Shown here: in pieces, positions 3,749 to 16,285 of the stretch
How the letters are laid out: every line of letters starts with the position of its first letter
How positions within the stretch are numbered: the stretch's first letter is position 1
IMG/VR virus record: IMGVR_UViG_3300027963_000255
Coordinates: 1-28,744 of that record
Source of the DNA: a virus
DNA length: 28,744 nt
Reading direction: 5' to 3' (one strand)
Program-made: the position numbers and the translations under genes
Notes under the pieces: model-generated
Databases searched by the model: none
The model's input: only the letters and a program-made list of their open reading frames with translations
What the model was told of the DNA's origin: nothing

Positions 3749-4364
3749 ATTTGTTTCCCTATTCGCCGGTGTTGGCGGATTTGATTTAGGTTTAGAAAAA
3801 GCAGGACACACCTGTGTCGGACAAGTTGAGATTGACAAGAACGCTCGGGCAATCCTTGAGCGACACTGGCCGAATGTGCCAAAGCATGATGACGTACAAA
3901 CAGCAATAGATTGGGCAAACGAAAATGAACTCACAGGAACAGTTGACCTTGTTGTCGGAGGATTCCCCTGCCAAGACCTTAGTGTTGCAGGAAAAAGAGC
4001 TGGCTTGGCTGGCAAACGATCTGGACTATTCTTTGACGCACTTGCTTTCGCGCAAAGTGTCAAAGCAAAAACTATCCTCTTGGAAAATGTGCCAGGACTT
4101 CTATCAAGCAACCAAGGACGCGATTTCGGACAACTCCTCACTGAACTGGCCGACGCAGGGTATAGCAACATCGAATGGCGTGTTCTTAATTCGCAGTTCT
4201 TCGGAGTCGCGCAGCGACGCAGACGAGTGTTCATTGTCGCAAGTGTTGGAACAGAACCCTTCCGTCAAATACTCTCTGAGTGCGAAGGCAGTGCAAGGGA
4301 TTATTCGCAGAGCCGAGAGGCGTGGCAAGACACTTCCGTCTCAGTTGGATCAGGCGTTGCGTAA
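3741..4364 (+). CDS. DNA cytosine-C5 methyltransferase, N-terminal piece (motifs I-VIII)
   Basis: A 207-aa protein with the ordered motifs of C5-cytosine methyltransferases: SAM-binding FAGVGGFDLGLE (residues 8-19), catalytic GGFPCQDLS with Cys77, ENV at 115-117 and QRRRR at 158-162. It stops after motif VIII; motifs IX and X follow in another frame in the gene at 4364-4930, whose ATG overlaps this stop (TAATG). The product alone should bind SAM but lack the target-recognition part, so the two polypeptides probably assemble, as in the known two-subunit enzyme M.AquI. Phage methyltransferases usually protect DNA against host restriction. From base 3925 onward the same DNA also encodes another protein in the +1 frame. 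Confidence 0.85.
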   Translation: MARFVSLFAGVGGFDLGLEKAGHTCVGQVEIDKNARAILERHWPNVPKHDDVQTAIDWANENELTGTVDLVVGGFPCQDLSVAGKRAGLAGKRSGLFFDALAFAQSVKAKTILLENVPGLLSSNQGRDFGQLLTELADAGYSNIEWRVLNSQFFGVAQRRRRVFIVASVGTEPFRQILSECEGSARDYSQSREAWQDTSVSVGSGVA

Positions 4365-9379: not shown

Positions 9380-9423
9380 ATAGTTTTCTGTATCCAGAGG
9401 GGAAGCTGGTACAGTCAAAAAGC

Positions 9424-9464
9424 AAAACCCTGCCAGTGTTTGTCCTACTGGTGGGGTTTTGTTA
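9424..9464 (+). terminator. Rho-independent terminator of the rightward early operon
   Basis: AAAACCCTGCCAGT (9424-9437) pairs with ACTGGTGGGGTTTT (9447-9460) across a 9-nt loop. The 14-bp stem has two G-U wobbles on the plus-strand RNA and ends in a T-rich tail. It lies 45 bp after the sigma-like gene stop. Confidence 0.85.
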
Positions 9465-9555: not shown

Positions 9556-9562
9556 GACAACA

Positions 9563-9599
9563 AAAGACCCCCGCCGGATAGGAGTCAGCAGGGGTCTTT
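9563..9599. terminator. Bidirectional terminator between convergent operons
   Basis: AAAGACCCCCGC (9563-9574) pairs with GCAGGGGTCTTT (9588-9599) with one mismatch. The A-run on the left and T-run on the right give a T-tract in both directions. It separates the rightward early operon from the leftward operon ending at 9628. The spacer 9380-9627 holds no gene I can support. Confidence 0.75.
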
Positions 9600-9627
9600 C
9601 GTGTTGCAGGATAGCGGATAGGAGACG

Positions 9628-9927
9628 CTAATCCAACAGTACCACAGAAGGATCGTGAAGGTTTGCCAGGTAGGCTCTGCTCTTTGAATCGTACTGTGAA
9701 ATTCTTTTTGGATGGTCTTTCAAAGCTTGCGCTTTAGTGGCATAAGGGCCAATAGCTTTGACTACTTGAAGGGTTGGATGCACTGCCACCAGTACGTACG
9801 TTTCACGCTTAGCACGGATACCGTCAATGGTTTCGATCACTAGGCGGGCTAACGCATCAACGTCATCGTGTTCCTGCATGAGCAGGTCTGCAATAGCTTT
9901 GATTTCAGTCGGACGTATTTGCAGCAT
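9628..9927 (-). CDS. Conserved hypothetical protein, last gene of the leftward operon
   Basis: A 99-aa protein with AAGGA 10 bp upstream of its ATG. The segment YVLVAVHPTLQVVKAIGPYATKAQALKDHPKR looks like a small beta-rich domain; from memory, GPYATKAQALK recurs in actinophage proteins. No catalytic motif is visible. It overlaps the preceding gene by 23 bp and ends about 30 bp before the bidirectional terminator. Confidence 0.7.
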   Translation of the reverse strand: MLQIRPTEIKAIADLLMQEHDDVDALARLVIETIDGIRAKRETYVLVAVHPTLQVVKAIGPYATKAQALKDHPKRISQYDSKSRAYLANLHDPSVVLLD

Positions 9928-10078
9928 ACTTTTCGCATCCTTGAATAGCAGTGTGGTATTGCAGTTTCAGGTTGAGCACGTCCATTGTTGCTCCATGTAT
10001 CGTCTTTAGGCAACTACCGCAGTATGTTACCCATTCGTCCCAGATTGGATCGTACCGGGCACTACTCATCGGACTCAT
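9905..10078 (-). CDS. 57-aa CxxC protein
   Basis: The product contains YCGSCLKTIHG, a half zinc-ribbon, and one further Cys near the C-terminus (QGCEKY). ATG 10078 was chosen because TAGGTG lies about 8 bp before it; ATGs at 10087 and 10069 are also in frame. It overlaps both neighbours, as is usual in this operon. Function unknown. Confidence 0.55.
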   Translation of the reverse strand: MSPMSSARYDPIWDEWVTYCGSCLKTIHGATMDVLNLKLQYHTAIQGCEKYAANTSD

Positions 10079-10244
10079 GCTTTGCACCTAACGCTATGTT
10101 TGCGCACTGCTGGAACGTTGCACGGGTTGCTGGCAGGTCTGATTCTGCCGGTGCTTGCGCCATGATCTGTGCCGCTATCTGTGTACGCCAAAATGTTTCA
10201 ATCTCTAATAGTGCTTCTGTCTGCTCTTCGGTTAGCTTGGTCAT
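10062..10244 (-). CDS. Small helical hypothetical protein
   Basis: A 60-aa protein rich in Glu, Ala and Gln (TEEQTEALLEIETFWRTQIA), predicted from composition to be helical, with a single Cys. It has a GAGGA site upstream and overlaps the preceding stop by 4 bp (ATGA at 10241-10244). No family was recognised. Confidence 0.6.
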   Translation of the reverse strand: MTKLTEEQTEALLEIETFWRTQIAAQIMAQAPAESDLPATRATFQQCANIALGAKHESDE

Positions 10245-10411
10245 CCTAAATCCTCTTCTAAGTAATCGTCACGACGGCTATCGTGGTCATCGTCACGTTC
10301 TAGTGTAGCAGTGTTTTCCCACCATTCGGCCACTAAATCGTTACTGGCAACGTCATAGAATCCGTTAGCTGCTGCTTCGGCAACCATCTTCTCTAATTCC
10401 GGGTTACTCAT
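10241..10411 (-). CDS. 56-aa acidic hypothetical protein
   Basis: ATG 10411 overlaps the preceding stop by 4 bp and the TGA overlaps the next ATG by 4 bp, filling the interval exactly. The product (MSNPELEKMVAEAAANGFYD...) ends in a run of charged residues (RDDDHDSRRDDYLEEDLG). Function unknown; the overlaps at both ends and the lack of any competing frame support it. Confidence 0.6.
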   Translation of the reverse strand: MSNPELEKMVAEAAANGFYDVASNDLVAEWWENTATLERDDDHDSRRDDYLEEDLG

Positions 10412-10584
10412 GGCATCCTGCCATTCAGCACTTCAATAGTGTCACACGGGTACGAATCATTACATTCGCCACACGTAGGCGTACAGTCACGGCAGTTACA
10501 ATCAGCAGACATGTCATAGTGCAGCTTGCGCACATTGTCGATGATCTCCTGTAATTCGCCGGCTACGGCTTGAAAGTACGTCAT
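10408..10584 (-). CDS. Cys-rich zinc-binding protein, PCxTIxxL family
   Basis: A 58-aa protein with a helical N-terminus and CNCRDCTPTCGECNDSYPCDTIEVLNG at the C-terminus (six cysteines in about 21 residues). The ending parallels those of its upstream neighbour 10581-10853 and of the plus-strand gene 6703-6966. ATG 10584 overlaps the upstream stop (ATGA); an in-frame TTG at 10596 is less likely. It probably binds one or two metals. Function unknown. Confidence 0.65.
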   Translation of the reverse strand: MTYFQAVAGELQEIIDNVRKLHYDMSADCNCRDCTPTCGECNDSYPCDTIEVLNGRMP

Positions 10585-10853
10585 TCTGACTCCCAACCTA
10601 ACGCCACAATCGTGTCACACGGCCACGATACTAGGTTGCCACCCAAGTCCCGACATTCACTGCAACACACACCAAGTGACGTTTTCCACCTACGGTGAAC
10701 GCCACGCACGGCAAGCTCACGCAGCTTTGCATCATCCAGCAGTGTCCTCATGGCACGTGCCTGGTCAGCGATCTCACGCACGGCAGCAGTAACCTCGGAC
10801 ACATTCACAGTAACCTGCTCTAGCCATTCGGCATCGACTTGCATCTTATTCAT
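10581..10853 (-). CDS. Zinc-binding protein, PCxTIxxL family
   Basis: A helical N-terminal region (about 50 residues, VNVSEVTAAVREIADQARAM) precedes GVCCSECRDLGGNLVSWPCDTIVALGWE. From memory, this helix-plus-ribbon plan is widespread among actinophage hypothetical proteins. Three consecutive ATGs (10859, 10856, 10853) are possible starts. The third is best spaced (6 bp) from the AGGG ribosome site and overlaps the stop of the upstream mini-gene, so it was preferred. Function unknown. Confidence 0.65.
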   Translation of the reverse strand: MNKMQVDAEWLEQVTVNVSEVTAAVREIADQARAMRTLLDDAKLRELAVRGVHRRWKTSLGVCCSECRDLGGNLVSWPCDTIVALGWESE

Positions 10854-10959
10854 CATCATCCCTATTCTCTACTAGACATTCATAACAATTTATGGAAGCG
10901 GCCCTGCCGCCAGTAATGTGCCTACGGCACGTAGCGTTCAAATCATCGTCAGTAATCAT
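10846..10959 (-). CDS. 37-aa mini-protein with a C-H-C-C set
   Basis: ATG 10959 overlaps the upstream stop (ATGA) and TAA 10848-10846 overlaps the next start, so the frame fills the gap precisely. The product MITDDDLNATCRRHITGG... continues to NCYECLVENRDDDE, giving Cys11, His14, Cys25 and Cys28, a possible zinc site. Probably real because of the exact tiling; function unknown. Confidence 0.5.
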   Translation of the reverse strand: MITDDDLNATCRRHITGGRAASINCYECLVENRDDDE

Positions 10960-11057
10960 CGCCCACACCCACACATCCACTGGTGTAGCCGTTCAGACCA
11001 CCGTAAATCACGTAAACAATCGCCACACAGCGGCGGATCAGGATGCTGGAAACTCAT
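10956..11057 (-). CDS. 33-aa CxxC...CxC mini zinc-ribbon protein
   Basis: The product MSFQHPDPPLCGDCLRDLRW... ends HQWMCGCGR, giving a CxxC and a CxC pair about 15 residues apart, which is a minimal zinc ribbon. ATG 11057 overlaps the upstream stop and its TGA overlaps the next ATG. The tiling on both sides and the paired cysteines are the evidence. No function is known. Confidence 0.5.
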   Translation of the reverse strand: MSFQHPDPPLCGDCLRDLRWSERLHQWMCGCGR

Positions 11058-11257
11058 AGCACACCACGATCCTTTTCATCTAGCCACGAAATGCCGTCTA
11101 GGATGTAGTCACGCATGAGCGCATCAGATTCCGGTGTTGCACCATCAACCTGGGCAATAGCACCCAAATGTAGGCGGTTATTCCAATCACGGATAGCGGC
11201 AGCTTTGCCACGTTTACGTGCCTGCCATAGCTGATACTTATTCCACAATGTTTTCAT
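11054..11257 (-). CDS. Small hypothetical protein
   Basis: A 67-aa protein starting MKTLWNKYQLWQARKRGKAA, basic and aromatic at the N-terminus and acidic later. AAGGA lies 8 bp upstream of the ATG, which overlaps the whiB stop by 4 bp. No family was recognised. The basic first third could contact nucleic acid or membrane. Confidence 0.6.
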   Translation of the reverse strand: MKTLWNKYQLWQARKRGKAAAIRDWNNRLHLGAIAQVDGATPESDALMRDYILDGISWLDEKDRGVL

Positions 11258-11676
11258 TTCCTTGATCCTTTACCCTTGTTGGCTTTATCTTTCAGTATTT
11301 CTATCTTGTCACGCAGACTCATAGCGTTTTTTACTGCCTGCCGGCCAAACGGACCTAGCCGGTTCATTGGCGTTTTCATCAACATGCGCTCACCAGGTAG
11401 CAGGCCACCCCACACGCCCCATTTGATTTCAGTATCGGTCAAACCTACTTCTAGGCATTTGTCTTTGATAGGGCAATCGTCACAGATACGTAGCGCATTG
11501 TTTAGCCGCCATAGTTCATCCTCTTCACCTGTCGTGTAGTCAATAAACCATGCGTCAGGATCGCCTACGGTACGGCACGATGCGTTTTCCCAAAATGATC
11601 CACCGAATTTGTCAAGCTGTCCCAATAGTGGCGATACTTCTTCACCGGCTTTTAGGCGGGGTTCATGCGCAACCAT
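11254..11676 (-). CDS. whiB: WhiB-family transcription factor (Fe-S cluster protein)
   Basis: A 140-aa protein with the family hallmark: four cysteines C34, C65, C68 and C74 (CDDC, then KC) followed by the GVWGG turn at 87-91 and a basic C-terminal region that would bind DNA. WhiB-like proteins hold a 4Fe-4S cluster and bind the primary sigma factor; they are restricted to actinobacteria and their phages, and the copy in mycobacteriophage TM4 affects septation and superinfection. The start at 11676 was preferred because GGAAG lies 7 bp upstream; an in-frame ATG at 11730 would deepen the overlap with the preceding gene. Confidence 0.9.
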   Translation of the reverse strand: MVAHEPRLKAGEEVSPLLGQLDKFGGSFWENASCRTVGDPDAWFIDYTTGEEDELWRLNNALRICDDCPIKDKCLEVGLTDTEIKWGVWGGLLPGERMLMKTPMNRLGPFGRQAVKNAMSLRDKIEILKDKANKGKGSRK

Positions 11677-11852
11677 TGTGCTACTTCCATTTCCTGCTCG
11701 CCGAAACATAGTGGGCAAAATGGTGTGCAATCGTATGCACCTTCATGCTTAGGGCACAAAATTGTGTCTGGCATAACCATGCCTAGCGACACCATTACTA
11801 TGTCTAGCATTTTATCTAGCGATAAAGCTTCTTCTACTTCTTCACCGGTCAT
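11652..11852 (-). CDS. Small Cys-rich hypothetical protein
   Basis: A 66-aa protein (MTGEEVEEALSLDKML...) with a helical N-terminus and CPKHEG, CTPFCPLCFG in the C-terminal half, a plausible zinc site. ATG 11852 overlaps the preceding stop (TGATG) and follows a GAGGA site 9 bp upstream; the frame is open further upstream but without a better start. It overlaps whiB by 25 bp, so the two are likely co-translated. Confidence 0.65.
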   Translation of the reverse strand: MTGEEVEEALSLDKMLDIVMVSLGMVMPDTILCPKHEGAYDCTPFCPLCFGEQEMEVAQWLRMNPA

Positions 11853-12040
11853 CAGATGTTGTCCTCTTCTGTAATTGGTTCCACAATGCTGCAATCGTAT
11901 TCTTTGACTACCTGAGTGGCCATGTCGTAGTCATCTACCTTAGTGTGTGTGCCAATCTTTACGGCACTATTGAAATCTTCAGCTTCAACATACAATTCGT
12001 AAGTCTGTTTATGCGTAAATGTAACTTTGTATTTAGCCAT
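11852..12040 (-). CDS. Small beta-rich hypothetical protein, first gene of its transcript
   Basis: A 62-aa protein starting MAKYKVTFTHKQTYELYVEA; the alternating hydrophobic pattern and the segment EDFNSAVKIGTH suggest a small alpha/beta fold that recurs in phage hypothetical proteins. ATG 12040 lies 9 bp after AGGA in the leader motif AGATAGG; ATGs at 12049 and 12046 are too close to it. The promoter/operator at 12074-12126 lies upstream, so this gene probably opens the operon running left to 9628. Confidence 0.65.
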   Translation of the reverse strand: MAKYKVTFTHKQTYELYVEAEDFNSAVKIGTHTKVDDYDMATQVVKEYDCSIVEPITEEDNI

Positions 12041-12073
12041 TGTCATCATTCCTATCTTTCATTGTGTGTTCAT

Positions 12074-12126
12074 TGTGCCAATCTGGCACATCATTTAACC
12101 TAGCACCACACACTGACATTCTGCAA
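12074..12126 (-). promoter_or_regulatory. Leftward promoter with a palindromic operator at the start site
   Basis: On the minus strand TTGCAG (12126-12121) and TAGGTT (12102-12097) are 18 bp apart and fit a sigma70-type promoter with a TANNNT minus-10. The predicted start is near 12090. Exactly there lies a perfect inverted repeat, TGTGCCA-atc-TGGCACA (12074-12090), the usual position for a repressor operator. The stretch 12041-12281 holds no gene I can support. Confidence 0.5.
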
Positions 12127-12228
12127 CACGTTAGCGAAACTAGCAGCACTGGCGTGTCGTGACCTGCCACACGTATTGCCACACGGCAGCGTGAGCTGTG
12201 CGATGTTTAGTTATTCCGTCACCCGTTA

Positions 12229-12282
12229 GGATCAGGTAGCCACACACCGGCAAGCTGTCACCGATGCATGACTATCCGACAC
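12229..12282 (-). repeat. Long stem-loop repeat A, copy 1
   Basis: On the minus strand the hairpin begins at the stop of the 38-aa gene 12282-12398. About 20 of 22 stem positions pair, several as G-U, across a 10-nt loop. It shares TAGTCATGCA in the left arm and TGTGGCTA in the right arm with the other three copies (12446-12501, 13141-13196, 13622-13673). No T-run follows it. Confidence 0.65.
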
Positions 12283-12398
12283 TAGGCCGATAGATTTTGT
12301 TGTCTGACCTGGCTACACCTGACGCATAATGACACGGTAGTGTCTAATGCTTTAACCCAATTCATCAAGTCGCATTTGCTACAAATGCCAATGTTCAT
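12282..12398 (-). CDS. 38-aa double-CxxC zinc-ribbon mini-protein
   Basis: The product MNIGICSKCDLMNWVKALDT... ends with a second pair, CVRCSQVRQQNLSA, giving CxxC-x15-CxxC, a complete minimal zinc ribbon. AGGA lies about 11 bp upstream of ATG 12398, the palindrome GCACGGC-gta-GCCGTGC lies 23 bp upstream, and stem-loop A begins directly after the TAG. The same gene-plus-hairpin layout repeats along this block, which supports it as a real gene. Confidence 0.6.
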   Translation of the reverse strand: MNIGICSKCDLMNWVKALDTTVSLCVRCSQVRQQNLSA

Positions 12399-12420
12399 TA
12401 TTTGTTTGTCCTATCGTGCT

Positions 12421-12437
12421 GCACGGCGTAGCCGTGC
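12421..12437. repeat. Palindrome B, copy 1
   Basis: GCACGGC-gta-GCCGTGC is a perfect 7-bp inverted repeat. Versions of the same core (ACGGCGTAGCCGT) occur at 13590-13604 and 14769-14783, always in the leader upstream of a minus-strand gene. Confidence 0.65.
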
Positions 12438-12445
12438 CCTAATAA

Positions 12446-12501
12446 CTATTACTAGGTAGCCACACACTAGCGTGGGCTAGTGCATGACTATCTGGCAATA
12501 G
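12446..12501 (-). repeat. Long stem-loop repeat A, copy 2
   Basis: A 56-nt hairpin with 25-nt arms and the loop CCCACG on the minus strand. It has four G-U pairs and two mismatches, and begins 5 nt after the stop of the sliding-clamp-like gene. Confidence 0.75.
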
Positions 12502-12505
12502 GGGG

Positions 12506-13108
12506 CTATTTGTCGATGCGTACCGGCATGGCGATAACCTGCCAGGCAATAGTGTCATGATCCACGTGCACCTTGATGGCCCTATTCTCGCCCACAAATT
12601 GCAGCTTTACGGGCGTATCTTTAACACGTGGGATCTTGTCCAATTTGGCGAATAGTGCAGGGTTAATGCCGATGTTCTCGACATAACCAAACGTGTCAGG
12701 CCATAGTCTTTCATATCGTGGGAAATCATATTGCCCGTTAAGGTTACGGGCGGTAAGGGTCACGTCAGGGATGCCGTGTAGGGCTATCTCGTAGCCGTTA
12801 CCGGTCAATTTCACGCCCAAATTCTTATTTAGTTTTAGCGCATCTTTAAGCGCAGTAATGAAAGCTTTCACGTCATCCATGTCGATTAGTGCATCAAAAC
12901 TATGCCACGCATTAACGTCATTAGTGGGCCTGACAGTGCCCGCCACTAGCAGATAGCGATTCGTGCCCACTATGTCAATGCCTGACCCTTGCATGGCCGT
13001 AATTTTGACACAATTAAACGCCGGCAAATTCTTATCGGCAGCAACAGCAACTAACGCCCCCGCTAGGGCATCCCGCAACACGTGAGCGGGCAATATGATC
13101 TCATTCAT
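12506..13108 (-). CDS. Short DnaN-like sliding clamp
   Basis: A 200-aa protein. LRDALAGALVAVAADKNLPA, then VKITAMQGSGIDIVGTNRYL, resembles a domain of the bacterial beta clamp (residues about 11-58), and the end PVKLQFVG...WQVIAMPVRI resembles the C-terminal strand with the MPxR motif. Bacterial DnaN has three domains in about 370 aa; this length fits only two, as in PCNA-type subunits that form trimers. It would tether a polymerase to DNA, though the phage polymerase is not in this window. AGGA lies 10 bp before the ATG. A related clamp-domain protein with another role cannot be excluded. Confidence 0.6.
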   Translation of the reverse strand: MNEIILPAHVLRDALAGALVAVAADKNLPAFNCVKITAMQGSGIDIVGTNRYLLVAGTVRPTNDVNAWHSFDALIDMDDVKAFITALKDALKLNKNLGVKLTGNGYEIALHGIPDVTLTARNLNGQYDFPRYERLWPDTFGYVENIGINPALFAKLDKIPRVKDTPVKLQFVGENRAIKVHVDHDTIAWQVIAMPVRIDK

Positions 13109-13140
13109 TTTCGATTATTCCTATCTAATCAACCTGACAA

Positions 13141-13196
13141 CTATTGCCAGATAGCCACGCATTAGCGTCAACTAATGCATGACTACCCGACAATAG
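13141..13196 (-). repeat. Long stem-loop repeat A, copy 3 (perfect)
   Basis: A 56-nt hairpin: on minus-strand RNA all 25 positions of the two arms pair (five as G-U) around the loop TTGACG. On plus-strand RNA those five would be A-C mismatches. It begins 2 nt after the stop of the gene 13199-13429. Confidence 0.8.
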
Positions 13197-13198
13197 GG

Positions 13199-13429
13199 CT
13201 AGGCCGATATAGTGGCGAGATTGGCGCAAGCTTTGCGGTGCTTGATGTAGCCGTGTTCGCTATCGTCACGCCCGCACGTGTCGCACGTGTCATAGAATTC
13301 TGCACGGAATAGGCGCAGCGCATCCCGCTTAGTGTGACCGTAATAAGTACGGGTGACCAGGTAACCGCTTATCATGTCGCTAATGATCCATGCGCCACTA
13401 GGTACGGCACGGGTAATTGTTGCAGACAT
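13199..13429 (-). CDS. Conserved small protein with TRTYYGHTKRDALRLFR motif
   Basis: A 76-aa protein. SGYLVTRTYYGHTKRDALRL resembles a short beta-hairpin plus helix that I recall from many actinophage proteins. The C-terminal half has CDTCGRDDSEH and a later KACANL, a likely C-C-H-C metal site. The ATG follows TAGGTG by 8 bp and lies 2 bp after the upstream stop. Function unknown. Confidence 0.7.
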   Translation of the reverse strand: MSATITRAVPSGAWIISDMISGYLVTRTYYGHTKRDALRLFRAEFYDTCDTCGRDDSEHGYIKHRKACANLATISA

Positions 13430-13431
13430 GA

Positions 13432-13563
13432 CTAAGCACCTACCTTTACTGCGTGACCGTCACAAACATAGACATAATTCGATTCTGGCAATTTCCAATT
13501 ACCGGCACGGCATCCCGCCGTCACACATTCATAGCGGGTCAATAGTGCTAGGTAGCTTTCCAT
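13432..13563 (-). CDS. 43-aa Cys/His mini-protein
   Basis: The product MESYLALLTRYECVTAGCRA... continues to YVYVCDGHAVKVGA. Cys13, Cys18, Cys34 and His37 could form a zinc site. ATG 13563 lies 13 bp after the AGGA of the shared AGATAGG leader, and the stop is 2 bp before the next ATG. The palindrome B copy at 13590-13604 lies just upstream. Confidence 0.55.
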   Translation of the reverse strand: MESYLALLTRYECVTAGCRAGNWKLPESNYVYVCDGHAVKVGA

Positions 13564-13589
13564 ATTCACAATAGTTTCCTATCTATCTG

Positions 13590-13604
13590 CACGGCGTAGC
13601 CGTG
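13590..13604. repeat. Palindrome B, copy 2
   Basis: CACGGC-gta-GCCGTG, a perfect 6-bp inverted repeat with the same centre as the copies at 12421-12437 and 14769-14783. Confidence 0.6.
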
Positions 13605-13621
13605 ACGTGTCCTAACGCTTA

Positions 13622-13673
13622 GGGCACGATAGCCACACACCCACACGGGGCGGGTGCATGACTAACGCACACT
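13622..13673 (-). repeat. Long stem-loop repeat A, copy 4
   Basis: The most diverged copy. TAGTCATGCACCC pairs with GGGTGTGTGGCTA on minus-strand RNA with G-U wobbles; the lower stem is weaker. It begins about 6 nt after the stop of gene 13680-14153. Confidence 0.65.
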
Positions 13674-13679
13674 AGCGGG

Positions 13680-14153
13680 CTAGTAGTCGGTTAGTGCCTG
13701 CAAGTAGTGCACAATACCGGGGCACGTTGCCCACATTTCGGCGCTATCCGTACCCCATGCAGCATGCACCTTAACATCATCGCCAGACAGGTCAGACACT
13801 AGCCACACGTTAGGGCCGCCTAACGTTAACCATACTTTTACGCTAGTAACGTCCCAATCTTCGCCGCTGCGCTTGCCGTGCGTTTCGATGTCTAAAACAT
13901 CTTCCAAATACATCTCGAAAACGTCGCGCCCGTCATCGGCTAAAAGCTCAGGGGAATCCTGCATAAGACAGACAGCGCGGTCATATTCTGACTTGTCAAT
14001 GCGCCCCTCGTCTAGGTGTTCGGTCAATCCTTCCGTGACCTCATCAACGGTTACGGGGTAAGAATTACCGTAAACGATTACAGCATCGTTAATAATTTCC
14101 AACGTTTCGATATCTTCCATGTTTTCGGTCACAATTTCGCGGCATGTTCTCAT
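13680..14153 (-). CDS. Hypothetical acidic protein
   Basis: A 157-aa acidic protein. The first half has Glu/Asp-rich helices (residues about 35-75). The second half (SVKVWLTLGGPNVWLVSDLS, then VKVHAAWGTDSAEMW) alternates in a way that suggests a small beta domain; from memory, a GGPxVWL pattern recurs in phage and prophage hypothetical proteins. The strong acidity could suit a DNA mimic or anti-host factor, which is speculation. The ATG follows AGGA by 11 bp and the leader motif AGATAGG. Confidence 0.65.
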   Translation of the reverse strand: MRTCREIVTENMEDIETLEIINDAVIVYGNSYPVTVDEVTEGLTEHLDEGRIDKSEYDRAVCLMQDSPELLADDGRDVFEMYLEDVLDIETHGKRSGEDWDVTSVKVWLTLGGPNVWLVSDLSGDDVKVHAAWGTDSAEMWATCPGIVHYLQALTDY

Positions 14154-14263
14154 ATTGATTAGTTTCCTATCTAGTCAAGTGCCTACCGGTGCAGGCATAG
14201 GGTAATAGTAACCCTGCGCCGCCTGCCGTGTCAACAATCAACACGACAAGCGACACGGGGACA

Positions 14264-14458
14264 CTATGGGGTGATAAGTAGCAACACGCCACACGTAAGT
14301 GTAAGTAGCGACAGCACTAACGGCAGCATCCACAACCCCCGCAAAATCGCCAGGCGTAAAGCTTTACACATGCCCAATTTGTCTGACACGACAGCGAACA
14401 CGACAGGCACGGCACACGCCCACAAAATAGCGACAGCATAGGTTGGAAAACTAACCAT
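14264..14458 (-). CDS. Small two-span membrane protein
   Basis: A 64-aa protein with two hydrophobic segments (about residues 6-26 and 42-62) separated by a basic loop containing DKLGMCKALRL. The ATG overlaps the upstream stop (TAATG). It could be a membrane-active early protein, for example one affecting host transport or superinfection; a holin role is less likely because it lies in the early block. No family was recognised. Confidence 0.6.
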   Translation of the reverse strand: MVSFPTYAVAILWACAVPVVFAVVSDKLGMCKALRLAILRGLWMLPLVLSLLTLTCGVLLLITP

Positions 14459-14727
14459 TATGCGGTCACCTGCGCCCGATACGCGCCACACGCCAAACAT
14501 GCGCCAGGGGTGCAGAATTCGTGATTGTTTTCCATTTCCCAATTTGCCCGCTGCGTTAGCGTGCCATATTGGTCATCGCGCAAGAATTCATCCACACTGT
14601 AATTTTCCACGCCTACACGGTGAACCCATTCCACATAGACACTTGCAAGCGCTAGGCGCTGCCATATCTTTAAAGCGGGGTCAAAATTCTTTATTACCCT
14701 GTCTAATTCTGTCGCTTTCACAATCAT
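14458..14727 (-). CDS. Small hypothetical protein with C-terminal Cys cluster
   Basis: An 89-aa protein: a mostly helical N-terminus (KIWQRLALASVYVEWVHRVG), the segment SVDEFLRDDQYGTLTQRA, then CTPGACLACGAY, three cysteines that could bind metal with a preceding His (NNHEFC). ATG 14727 is only 2 bp from AGGG; an in-frame GTG at 14721 is better spaced and may be the true start. It ends in a TAATG overlap with the membrane-protein gene. Confidence 0.6.
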   Translation of the reverse strand: MIVKATELDRVIKNFDPALKIWQRLALASVYVEWVHRVGVENYSVDEFLRDDQYGTLTQRANWEMENNHEFCTPGACLACGAYRAQVTA

Positions 14728-14768
14728 TTCCCTATCTGTAATCCTGTCCTAGCGGTCAGGTGAACCCC

Positions 14769-14783
14769 TACGGCGTAGCCGTA
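14769..14783. repeat. Palindrome B, copy 3
   Basis: TACGGC-gta-GCCGTA, a perfect 6-bp inverted repeat in the spacer 14728-14799, with the same core as copies 1 and 2. Confidence 0.6.
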
Positions 14784-14799
14784 AAGGAACATCCAATAA

Positions 14800-15084
14800 C
14801 TAAGCGCAGCGCTGCGTTTCCACAAATAGCGACAAATTGCCGCCGTATTGGTTCCGTGTCACCGTCAACCATTCACCGGCGCTAACGCCGCCCGGACATT
14901 CATCGCTATCTTGCAAGAATTCGATATACGCATCGGCAAGCATGCCCCGCCCCGCAGCGTCCAAATTTTCGCCCCAATTCTGCACCCGCAACACGGCAGC
15001 AACATCTTGCCGTGCCTGCACAAAATCACCGGCAGACATGTCTGAAAACCTGCCCGGAATATCTGCCTCGCATCGCTTACACAT
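14800..15084 (-). CDS. Small hypothetical protein with N-terminal CxxC
   Basis: A 94-aa protein starting MCKRCEADIPGRFSDMSAGD; the rest is helical and acidic (FVQARQDVAAVLRVQNWG, ADAYIEFLQDSDE). AGGGG lies 6 bp before the ATG. The N-terminal CKRC with a late Cys pair member (ETQRCA) may bind metal. From memory, similar helical proteins with DFVQARxDVA are seen in phages; no function is known. Confidence 0.6.
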   Translation of the reverse strand: MCKRCEADIPGRFSDMSAGDFVQARQDVAAVLRVQNWGENLDAAGRGMLADAYIEFLQDSDECPGGVSAGEWLTVTRNQYGGNLSLFVETQRCA

Positions 15085-15119
15085 AACTAACCCCTATCTT
15101 TATTGCCAGTACCGGCACA

Positions 15120-15165
15120 CTGTCCCCTAGTGGACAGATAAACGGGCACGGCGTGAACCGTACCC
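15120..15165 (-). other. Two spacer hairpins
   Basis: CTGTCC-cctagt-GGACAG (15120-15137) is a perfect 6-bp stem. GGGCACGG (15144-15151) pairs over 8 bp with CCGTACCC (15158-15165), where one position is G-U on minus-strand RNA but A-C on plus-strand RNA. They fill the spacer between the genes at 14800-15084 and 15179-15520. Confidence 0.5.
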
Positions 15166-15178
15166 GAATACCCGACAA

Positions 15179-15520
15179 CTAAGCAGACTCTGCCTCGCGG
15201 ATAAACATCCAAAATGCGCCGACCTGCGCCGCCGCCTCTTCGATGCTAGGGATGCCCCATGCATCATTGCCGTGCGTTTCGATGAACCTATCGAACATCG
15301 CCTGCACGTCATCGCCCCAATAATCAGACAAGGTGTTAAGCGTCCAAAATAGGGCATCAAGTACGCCCGTCACCTTGTCAAAATTGCCCTTACCTAGCGC
15401 CGCATTAATTGCTGCCTGCTTGGCGTTGGATGCATCAATCGCATCCTGACGTGCCTGCACCTTGCGCAAGATCTTAAGCTCCGCAACGCTTAAACCGCTT
15501 ACGAATTCTTCGTTATCCAT
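15179..15520 (-). CDS. Hypothetical protein, first gene of the leftward block
   Basis: A 113-aa protein starting MDNEEFVSGLSVAELKIL; the N-terminal half is helical with RKVQARQDAIDASNAKQAAI, likely a coiled coil or linker helix, and the C-terminal half is aromatic. ATG 15520 is 9 bp from the AGGG of the leader; ATG 15529 abuts it and is unlikely. The leader also has a hairpin (CGGGC-ggtgtt-GCCCG, 15544-15559) and a TTGACA minus-35 (15596-15591) without a well-spaced minus-10. Function unknown. Confidence 0.65.
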   Translation of the reverse strand: MDNEEFVSGLSVAELKILRKVQARQDAIDASNAKQAAINAALGKGNFDKVTGVLDALFWTLNTLSDYWGDDVQAMFDRFIETHGNDAWGIPSIEEAAAQVGAFWMFIREAESA

Positions 15521-15643
15521 CTTCGTCATCCCTATCTATTTGGCGGGCGGTGTTGCCCGATAACTAAGTAGAACATATACCTTTAGCCCCTGTCAAGCAT
15601 TTCCGGAAAATAATTTTCACCCCCCAAAATGGCACCTTCCAAT

Positions 15644-15828: not shown

Positions 15829-15892
15829 TGTGGATAACGTGTGGAAATGTTGTGGATAACTTATGCACAGGCTGTGGAAAAGCTGTGGACAG
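15829..15892. promoter_or_regulatory. Phased DnaA-box array, putative replication origin
   Basis: Two perfect DnaA boxes, TGTGGATAA (15829-15837 and 15851-15859), one opposite-strand TTATGCACA (15861-15869), one TGTGGAAAA (15873-15881) and two near matches (15840-15848, 15884-15892) lie in 64 bp. Starts fall at 15829, 15840, 15851, 15861, 15873 and 15884, about one helical turn apart. AT-richer DNA follows to about 16040, as expected for an unwinding element. It may be a host-DnaA-dependent origin or a DnaA-controlled promoter region. Confidence 0.65.
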
Positions 15893-16022: not shown

Positions 16023-16082
16023 TGGTAAATTTTTGGTAAAGTGCGGGATGAACTACCCAATATCCCCCCTTAATAGTAGTGA

Positions 16083-16274
16083 GGGTACTTCGTACTACAG
16101 AAGTGCCCGAACCTGCGTTTGCACTGCGGTTCGTGGAGCCTTCGGCGGAACGAACTGGTTGGTTTACTGGTGGGGACAGTTAGGTTTTTTGGGGCTGTTT
16201 TTGTGCCTAGGGCACTACTAAGGTTTCTTCCCAAGGCTACTACTAATGTCGGCTTCTCCTTGGGGTCGAGCCGA
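16083..16274 (+). other. Structured 5' leader of the late operon
   Basis: Four hairpins occur in 190 nt: GGGTACTTC with GAAGTGCCC (16083-16108), GTTCGT with ACGAAC and an inner GCC-ttc-GGC (16129-16155), GTGCC-tag-GGCAC (16203-16215), and TCGGCT with AGCCGA (16249-16274), the last ending at the ribosome site of the terminase gene. There is no gene here; short frames lack ribosome sites. The leader may stabilise the late mRNA or control its translation. Confidence 0.5.
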
Positions 16275-16285
16275 AGGGATTTATG

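Follow-up and report, generated by a model that had tools for sequence, protein, structure and literature searches.

The early region of phage T7 carries a series of RNase III sites (R0.3-R1.3) that come close to the elements described here. They are irregular hairpins between the cistrons of a multi-gene phage transcript, each placed between the stop codon of the upstream gene and the next ribosome-binding site. Their irregularity lies near the middle of the helix, a U-G wobble occurs in a GUC/GGC context, and the copies vary in sequence; the hairpins of the present locus share these properties, as parts of what is probably one multi-gene transcript. Repeated stem-loops also stand at several positions between early genes in T4-like phages, in the PeSL cassettes that were reportedly described by Arbiol in 2010 and by Comeau in 2014. 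A paper citing that work gives them as promoter-stem-loop cassettes (PMC4503421).

Another comparison comes from the Cluster K mycobacteriophages, whose non-structural region contains a 13-bp start-associated sequence (SAS), GGGATAGGAGCCC, in which a conserved GATAGGA-type motif stands 3-7 bp before the start codon (PMC3203893). Upstream of half of the SAS, in gaps of more than 50 bp, there are 17-bp inverted repeats called ESAS; their function is unknown, and their discoverers argued against a hairpin in the mRNA (PMC3203893). The present locus has a comparable setting: a phage that is probably actinobacterial, a non-structural region, a motif near starts (AGATAGGRA in this case), and inverted repeats in the gaps between genes.

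The hairpin family in the leftward gene block

The DNA analysed here, which we call the window, is the whole stretch of 28,744 nt of a 28.7-kb virus record (IMGVR_UViG_3300027963_000255). Its terminase shares about 45% identity with terminases of Streptomyces phages, and the window also has a WhiB-like gene (11254-11730), from which we infer that the host is probably an actinobacterium. IMG/VR holds numerous related contigs with terminases 70-97% identical to that of the window, which we take, from the metagenome series, to be freshwater phages. Among phage isolates there was no close DNA match to the window. A terminase search of genome contigs returned one short contig, whose MAG carries the label of a betaproteobacterium; this is not enough to settle the host.

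A block of leftward genes (about 9628-15529, minus strand) is probably expressed early, to judge from its content and orientation. The hairpins are confined to its first part (12.2-15.2 kb), where they lie between genes; the tightly overlapping later genes are without them. One gene of the block encodes a DNA sliding-clamp-like protein of 200 aa (12506-13108, minus strand; PHROG 947, 2e-6; PHROG 12598, 1e-10), which has homologues in the related contigs L002, L005 and L021. Searches of viral contigs with the clamp protein gave no further relatives, and the aligned clamp sequences had drifted too far apart for use as a query.

Several features around the head of the block may be recorded on their own account. 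Four DnaA-box-like sites fall within 53 bp at 15829-15881 (TTATCCACA twice, TTATGCACA and TTTTCCACA), a cluster also seen in L002 near 4130-4180 and possibly a replication origin. Upstream of the first leftward gene, at 15560-15600 on the minus strand, the arrangement TTGACAGG-N4-AAAGGTATATGTT is conserved in L002; it is without the standard -35/-10 spacing and could be the promoter at the head of the operon. The leader upstream of the terminase (16060-16280, ATCCCCCCTTAATAGTAGTGAGGGTACTTCG) is largely identical in L002, L003 and L004.

The original prediction was of a family of four stem-loops at 12229-13673, acting as RNA of the minus strand. All four are present on that strand, with exact helices at 12227-12284 (fold -30.7 kcal/mol, z -5.4), at 12446-12501 after the sliding-clamp-like gene (-31.4 kcal/mol, z -6.8), at 13141-13196 after the gene 13199-13429 (-39.1 kcal/mol, z -9.7) and at 13620-13674 after a 157-aa gene, 13680-14153 (-33.8 kcal/mol, z -6.4). 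The family is larger than had been thought, since the block contains seven members. The additional minus-strand hairpins are at 14205-14267 (-40.2 kcal/mol, z -7.5), at 14748-14804 after a 94-aa gene, 14800-15084 (-25.6 kcal/mol, z -3.3), and at 15126-15183 after a 116-aa gene, 15179-15529 (-34.2 kcal/mol, z -6.1). The hairpin at 14748-14804, with central mismatches, is the weakest of the seven; that at 15126-15183 has central U-U,U-U mismatches, and its orthologue is L002 3411-3466. The real hairpins had helix scores of 34-46; when the 6-kb gene block was shuffled with its dinucleotides preserved, the best helix scored 18-26. An Rfam search of the window found no match above the gathering score.

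The best copy, 13141-13196, is indeed paired throughout, over 26 of 26 pairs and not the 25 first counted. The helices had been placed 0-7 nt past the stop codon of the gene before. Three of them (12446-12501, 13141-13196 and 13620-13674) begin 2-5 nt past the stop, in keeping with that spacing, whereas the stop codon lies within the helix at 12227-12284, and likewise at 14205-14267, 14748-14804 and 15126-15183.

Two further observations belong to the neighbourhood of the hairpin at 12227-12284. A 38-codon ORF with a CxxC...CxxC pattern (12282-12398, minus strand) may encode a tiny zinc-binding protein, and its TAG stop lies within the hairpin foot. The 177 nt at 12050-12226 have no obvious gene and contain another inverted repeat, with a counterpart at L002 564-601.

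Covariation and strand

Gene order in the sister contig L002 matches that of the window, and hairpins stand there at the corresponding sites, with the stems exchanged; in the orthologue of 13141-13196 (L002 1623-1674) the upper stem is almost wholly replaced. An alignment of 14 hairpin copies from five related contigs (A2) gave the covariation analysis that had been put forward as a check. In it 91% of the cells pair and two-sided compensatory changes occur at 21 of the 26 pairs, and none of 500 shuffles reached any of the five measures used. The covariation score of 0.575 fell to 0.132 or less once the partners were slid by 1-3 columns.

A further alignment (A4) combined eight copies outside the model building with one reference row from the window; two-sided change was seen at 18 of 26 pairs (0 of 500 shuffles), with the qualification that the eight copies were found by the model and that such a search favours copies that fit it. 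In a second, sequence-divergent subfamily (A5), 7 of 27 pairs showed two-sided change, each measure being reached by 0-2 of 500 shuffles. The rows of these alignments mix paralogues and orthologues, a relatedness that the shuffles do not remove; a better guide is therefore given by the slid controls and by the second subfamily. A hairpin that is kept in relatives while its letters change is, on such comparative grounds, a real RNA element.

The strand is indicated by several measures. Variant positions had been described as G-U on the minus-strand RNA and A-C on the opposite strand, and the bias is borne out by the non-Watson-Crick pairs of A2, with 70 G-U against 11 A-C; the description has to be amended in that some helix positions are conserved mismatches (A-C, U-U, U-C). 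The plus-strand folds of three of the first four hairpins reach -13.8, -17.3 and -15.4 kcal/mol. At the same places, the covariance model scored the minus strand far higher than the plus strand, for example at 68 bits against 38 and at 64 against 19. The hairpins thus almost certainly function as RNA of the minus strand, and the selection on the leftward transcript that was originally proposed is upheld by the copies and their relatives, by the copies held out of the model and by the second subfamily.

A hairpin of single-stranded minus-strand DNA would give a like strand bias, since it would show the same contrast of G-T against A-C between the two strands, and an array of small genes with a hairpin at each gene end resembles gene cassettes. 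Such attC- or REP-like hairpins might have a part in replication, in recombination or in the exchange of cassettes. The exactness with which the hairpins are tied to stop and start codons, with a tight stop-codon registration and a placement just before the ribosome-binding site, argues instead for mRNA; there is no core sequence conserved across the subfamilies, and the tested proteins of the window showed no integrase. We regard a role as DNA hairpins as very improbable.

Length and irregularities in related phages

The original prediction also called for a search in other phages. The fetched loci were scanned mechanically for hairpins beginning between -10 and +6 nt from a same-strand ORF stop, stems of at least 14 pairs being accepted. 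The scan gave 63 non-redundant stop-anchored hairpins, a few of which are opposite-strand readings or weak chance stems, so that related phages contribute about 60 distinct ones at most. The stop codons at the 63 hairpins are UAG in 45 cases, UAA in 15 and UGA in three, while the background of ORFs of at least 120 aa has UAG, UAA and UGA at 27, 47 and 28. Over 24 sampled loci, the share of hairpins anchored at a stop rose with the helix score, from 20 of 289 at scores of 20-23 to 14 of 15 at 36-39 and 8 of 9 at 40-43, and none scoring at least 32 was found inside a long ORF.

The span of the helix peaks sharply at 26-28 pairs, with few at 15-23 pairs though the scan accepted 14. From the foot of the hairpin to the next start codon there are usually 10-55 nt. 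Pattern scans of all viral contigs returned 7 and 1 stretches for two versions of the first subfamily and 10 for a version of the second, counts that include several contigs already in the set. One like-shaped hairpin follows a 1200-nt ORF in ct2KA10, where the next ATG is 10 nt past the foot; the Streptomyces phage WRightOn has no hairpin over the threshold.

What the subfamilies have in common is the position of their irregularities. A mismatch at pair 11 from the foot is present in 9 of 14 copies in A2, 5 of 9 in A4 and 6 of 7 in A5, and a U-G wobble at pair 15 in 13 of 14, 8 of 9 and 7 of 7, respectively. A2 and A4 have a second mismatch at pair 5, and A5 has one at pair 8. Around these fixed positions the subfamilies have different paired letters, and thus selection keeps a measured irregular helix and not a sequence. 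A group of environmental phages, probably of freshwater actinobacteria, would in this way organise a multi-gene message by a repeated and precisely measured RNA element, in hosts where phage RNA biology is almost unknown. The open-access literature yielded no description of these hairpins, an absence that is not proof of novelty.

Another subclass of hairpins that start at the stop has a tandem mismatch at about pairs 15-17, which replaces the single mismatch; it was seen in L031, L050, L061, L047, L040, L043, L039, L042 and L035.

Proposed roles: processing, protection or termination

The most likely role of the hairpins is that of places where a long mRNA is cut or where its ends are protected. 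Of the functions first suggested, processing or protection of mRNA 3' ends fits, and termination without a U-tract fits poorly.

The hairpins may be cutting sites for a double-strand-specific RNase, the host RNase III, a reading to which we give about an even chance. They would be cis-acting RNA elements of the leftward multi-gene (probably early) mRNA, each spanning from the stop of one gene to shortly before the next ribosome-binding site. RNase III of the host would recognise the irregular helix of about 26 bp and cut it, which would split the transcript into mRNAs of one and two genes; their 3' ends would be capped by a stem and their 5' ends would fall a short way before the next ribosome-binding site, like those made at the T7 R sites. 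The early timing, the cutting itself, the identity of the enzyme and an effect on stability or translation are all what we infer from the arrangement of the locus.

RNase III is usually present in bacterial hosts. A search of 12 of these phage records gave no gene for it, and the host enzyme must therefore be assumed. One set of RNase III contact boxes, according to a review, requires a stem of 12 bp (PMC8708148); by our own arithmetic, two sets around staggered cuts come to about 24-26 bp, near the observed length. The hairpins, with 26-28 pairs and mismatches at about pairs 5 and 11, have the 12 bp per box set and the internal irregularity of such substrates, a geometric match that is permissive since RNase III sites are without a strong consensus. 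U-G is enriched in the distal box in both E. coli and B. subtilis (PMC11780869). If the fixed wobble occupied the distal box, the cut would fall in the lower stem; with a symmetric complex it would fall near the conserved centre.

There are clear differences from the T7 sites. The T7 stems are shorter (an upper stem of about 10 bp, a larger internal loop and a lower stem) and not exactly registered to the stop, whereas the hairpins here have 26-28 nearly continuous pairs with UAG in the foot and a cut that is presumed. The covariance model of the hairpins had no match in T7, which gives no sign of homology in sequence and structure to the R sites; a paired GUCAU/GUGGC motif common to T7 R1, R1.1 and several window copies is a weak likeness. 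The resemblance is at most a convergence. Should processing by RNase III prove true, a T7-type strategy would have evolved anew in a lineage unrelated to T7, and to a different design, in which the stop codon is in the helix and the length is fixed.

The same stems might serve, uncut by RNase III, as protective 3' stem-loops that block 3'-to-5' exonucleases after another nuclease has cleaved downstream, so that the stability of each gene's message is tuned within the operon. Position at the stop codon, high stability, strand bias and covariation would all follow, and a single stable stem would be enough for this purpose; neither the sharp length of 26-28 bp nor the mismatch and wobble positions common to subfamilies of different sequence would be explained. 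We think it rather unlikely that protection is the whole of their role.

A helix-binding protein that does not cut would leave the same traces as RNase III. The hairpins could bind a phage or host RNA-binding protein and so bring the operon's translation or expression under its control, for example by bridging from stop to start. The U-G wobble, which almost never becomes Watson-Crick in any of the three alignments (13 of 14, 8 of 9 and 7 of 7), speaks in favour of such binding, as does the layout, in which the foot carries a stop codon and is directly followed by the ribosome-binding site of the next gene; in ct2KA10, for instance, the ATG is 10 nt from the foot. Among the window genes tested, though, no candidate protein was found, and RNase III accounts for the same features; we consider control by a bound protein improbable. 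It is equally doubtful, taking the two proposals jointly, that the stop-anchored helix, of a fixed 26-28 bp with its set mismatch and wobble, is a widespread and not yet described class of phage RNA element forming a modular 3'-end unit for each gene, and that a dedicated factor coupled to translation termination, and not ordinary RNase III, reads these helices.

The stop-codon position would also suit intrinsic terminators that lack a U-tract, each with a promoter of its own behind it in the manner of PeSL. The reported absence of T-runs is confirmed, with a mean of 1.4 T in the 8 nt after the hairpin foot across the 63 hairpins. Intrinsic terminators have a U-rich tract after the stem and a G-C-rich stem base; here there is no U-tract, and G-C pairs number 5-9 of 32 at the first three pairs, which makes the foot A/U-rich, and 16-21 of 32 at the more apical pairs 20-23. 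In the gaps of 10-55 nt that most copies have before the next ATG, a separate promoter would hardly fit, if at all, and a scan for sigma-70-type promoters, 14205 set aside, gave 6 matches against 10 in shuffles. Hairpins of the U-tailed, terminator-like kind do occur at the end of the gene block, one at 9566-9586 on the minus strand, within a larger imperfect helix (9560-9602), and one at 9421-9463 on the plus strand, at the end of the opposing block. On the tail, the composition of the foot, the distance downstream and these U-tailed hairpins, we rejected U-less termination as the role of the family; the hairpins are unlikely to be U-less terminators.

One member stands apart. The loop and 3' arm of 14205-14267 carry a promoter-like TTGACA-N18-TACTAT (match 14234-14205), conserved in L002, L003, L004 and G001 (alignment A3), and this is a feature in favour of a terminator-and-promoter arrangement. 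It joins a stem-loop to a promoter as in PeSL, from which most hairpins here differ in their long stems and in having neither promoter nor terminator features. Members of the family may therefore not all share one job.

The same hairpin, with TTGACA in its repeat, is the only ESAS-like one in the window. A scan of TM4, Pixie and Anaya showed that the ESAS repeats keep their sequence (TGTTGACA-type), form folds of about equal quality on the two strands and in many cases have a fixed A-C rather than G-U; the window hairpins, in contrast, covary, are strand-specific and begin at a stop codon. Membership in ESAS was rejected for most of them, as their stems are exchanged between orthologous sites and no TGTTGACA repeat is shared. 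The window hairpins can be set beside the SAS/ESAS repeats of Cluster K, which are unexplained and fail the RNA test.

The motif AGATAGGRA, found at six starts of the gene block, resembles the core of the SAS and differs from the full 13-bp sequence. Its six matches in the window are all on the minus strand, against 0.13 expected, and lie in ribosome-binding position just upstream of starts, at 12049-12057, 13118-13126, 13576-13584, 14164-14172, 14729-14737 and 15529-15537; the gene behind the match at 13118-13126 is one set off by a hairpin. A short palindrome, GCACGGCTACGCCGTGC, is placed between hairpin and next start at 12421-12437 on the minus strand; a second copy, with one mismatch, is at 13589-13605 on the same strand (0.03 expected), and similar ones occur in L002 and G001.
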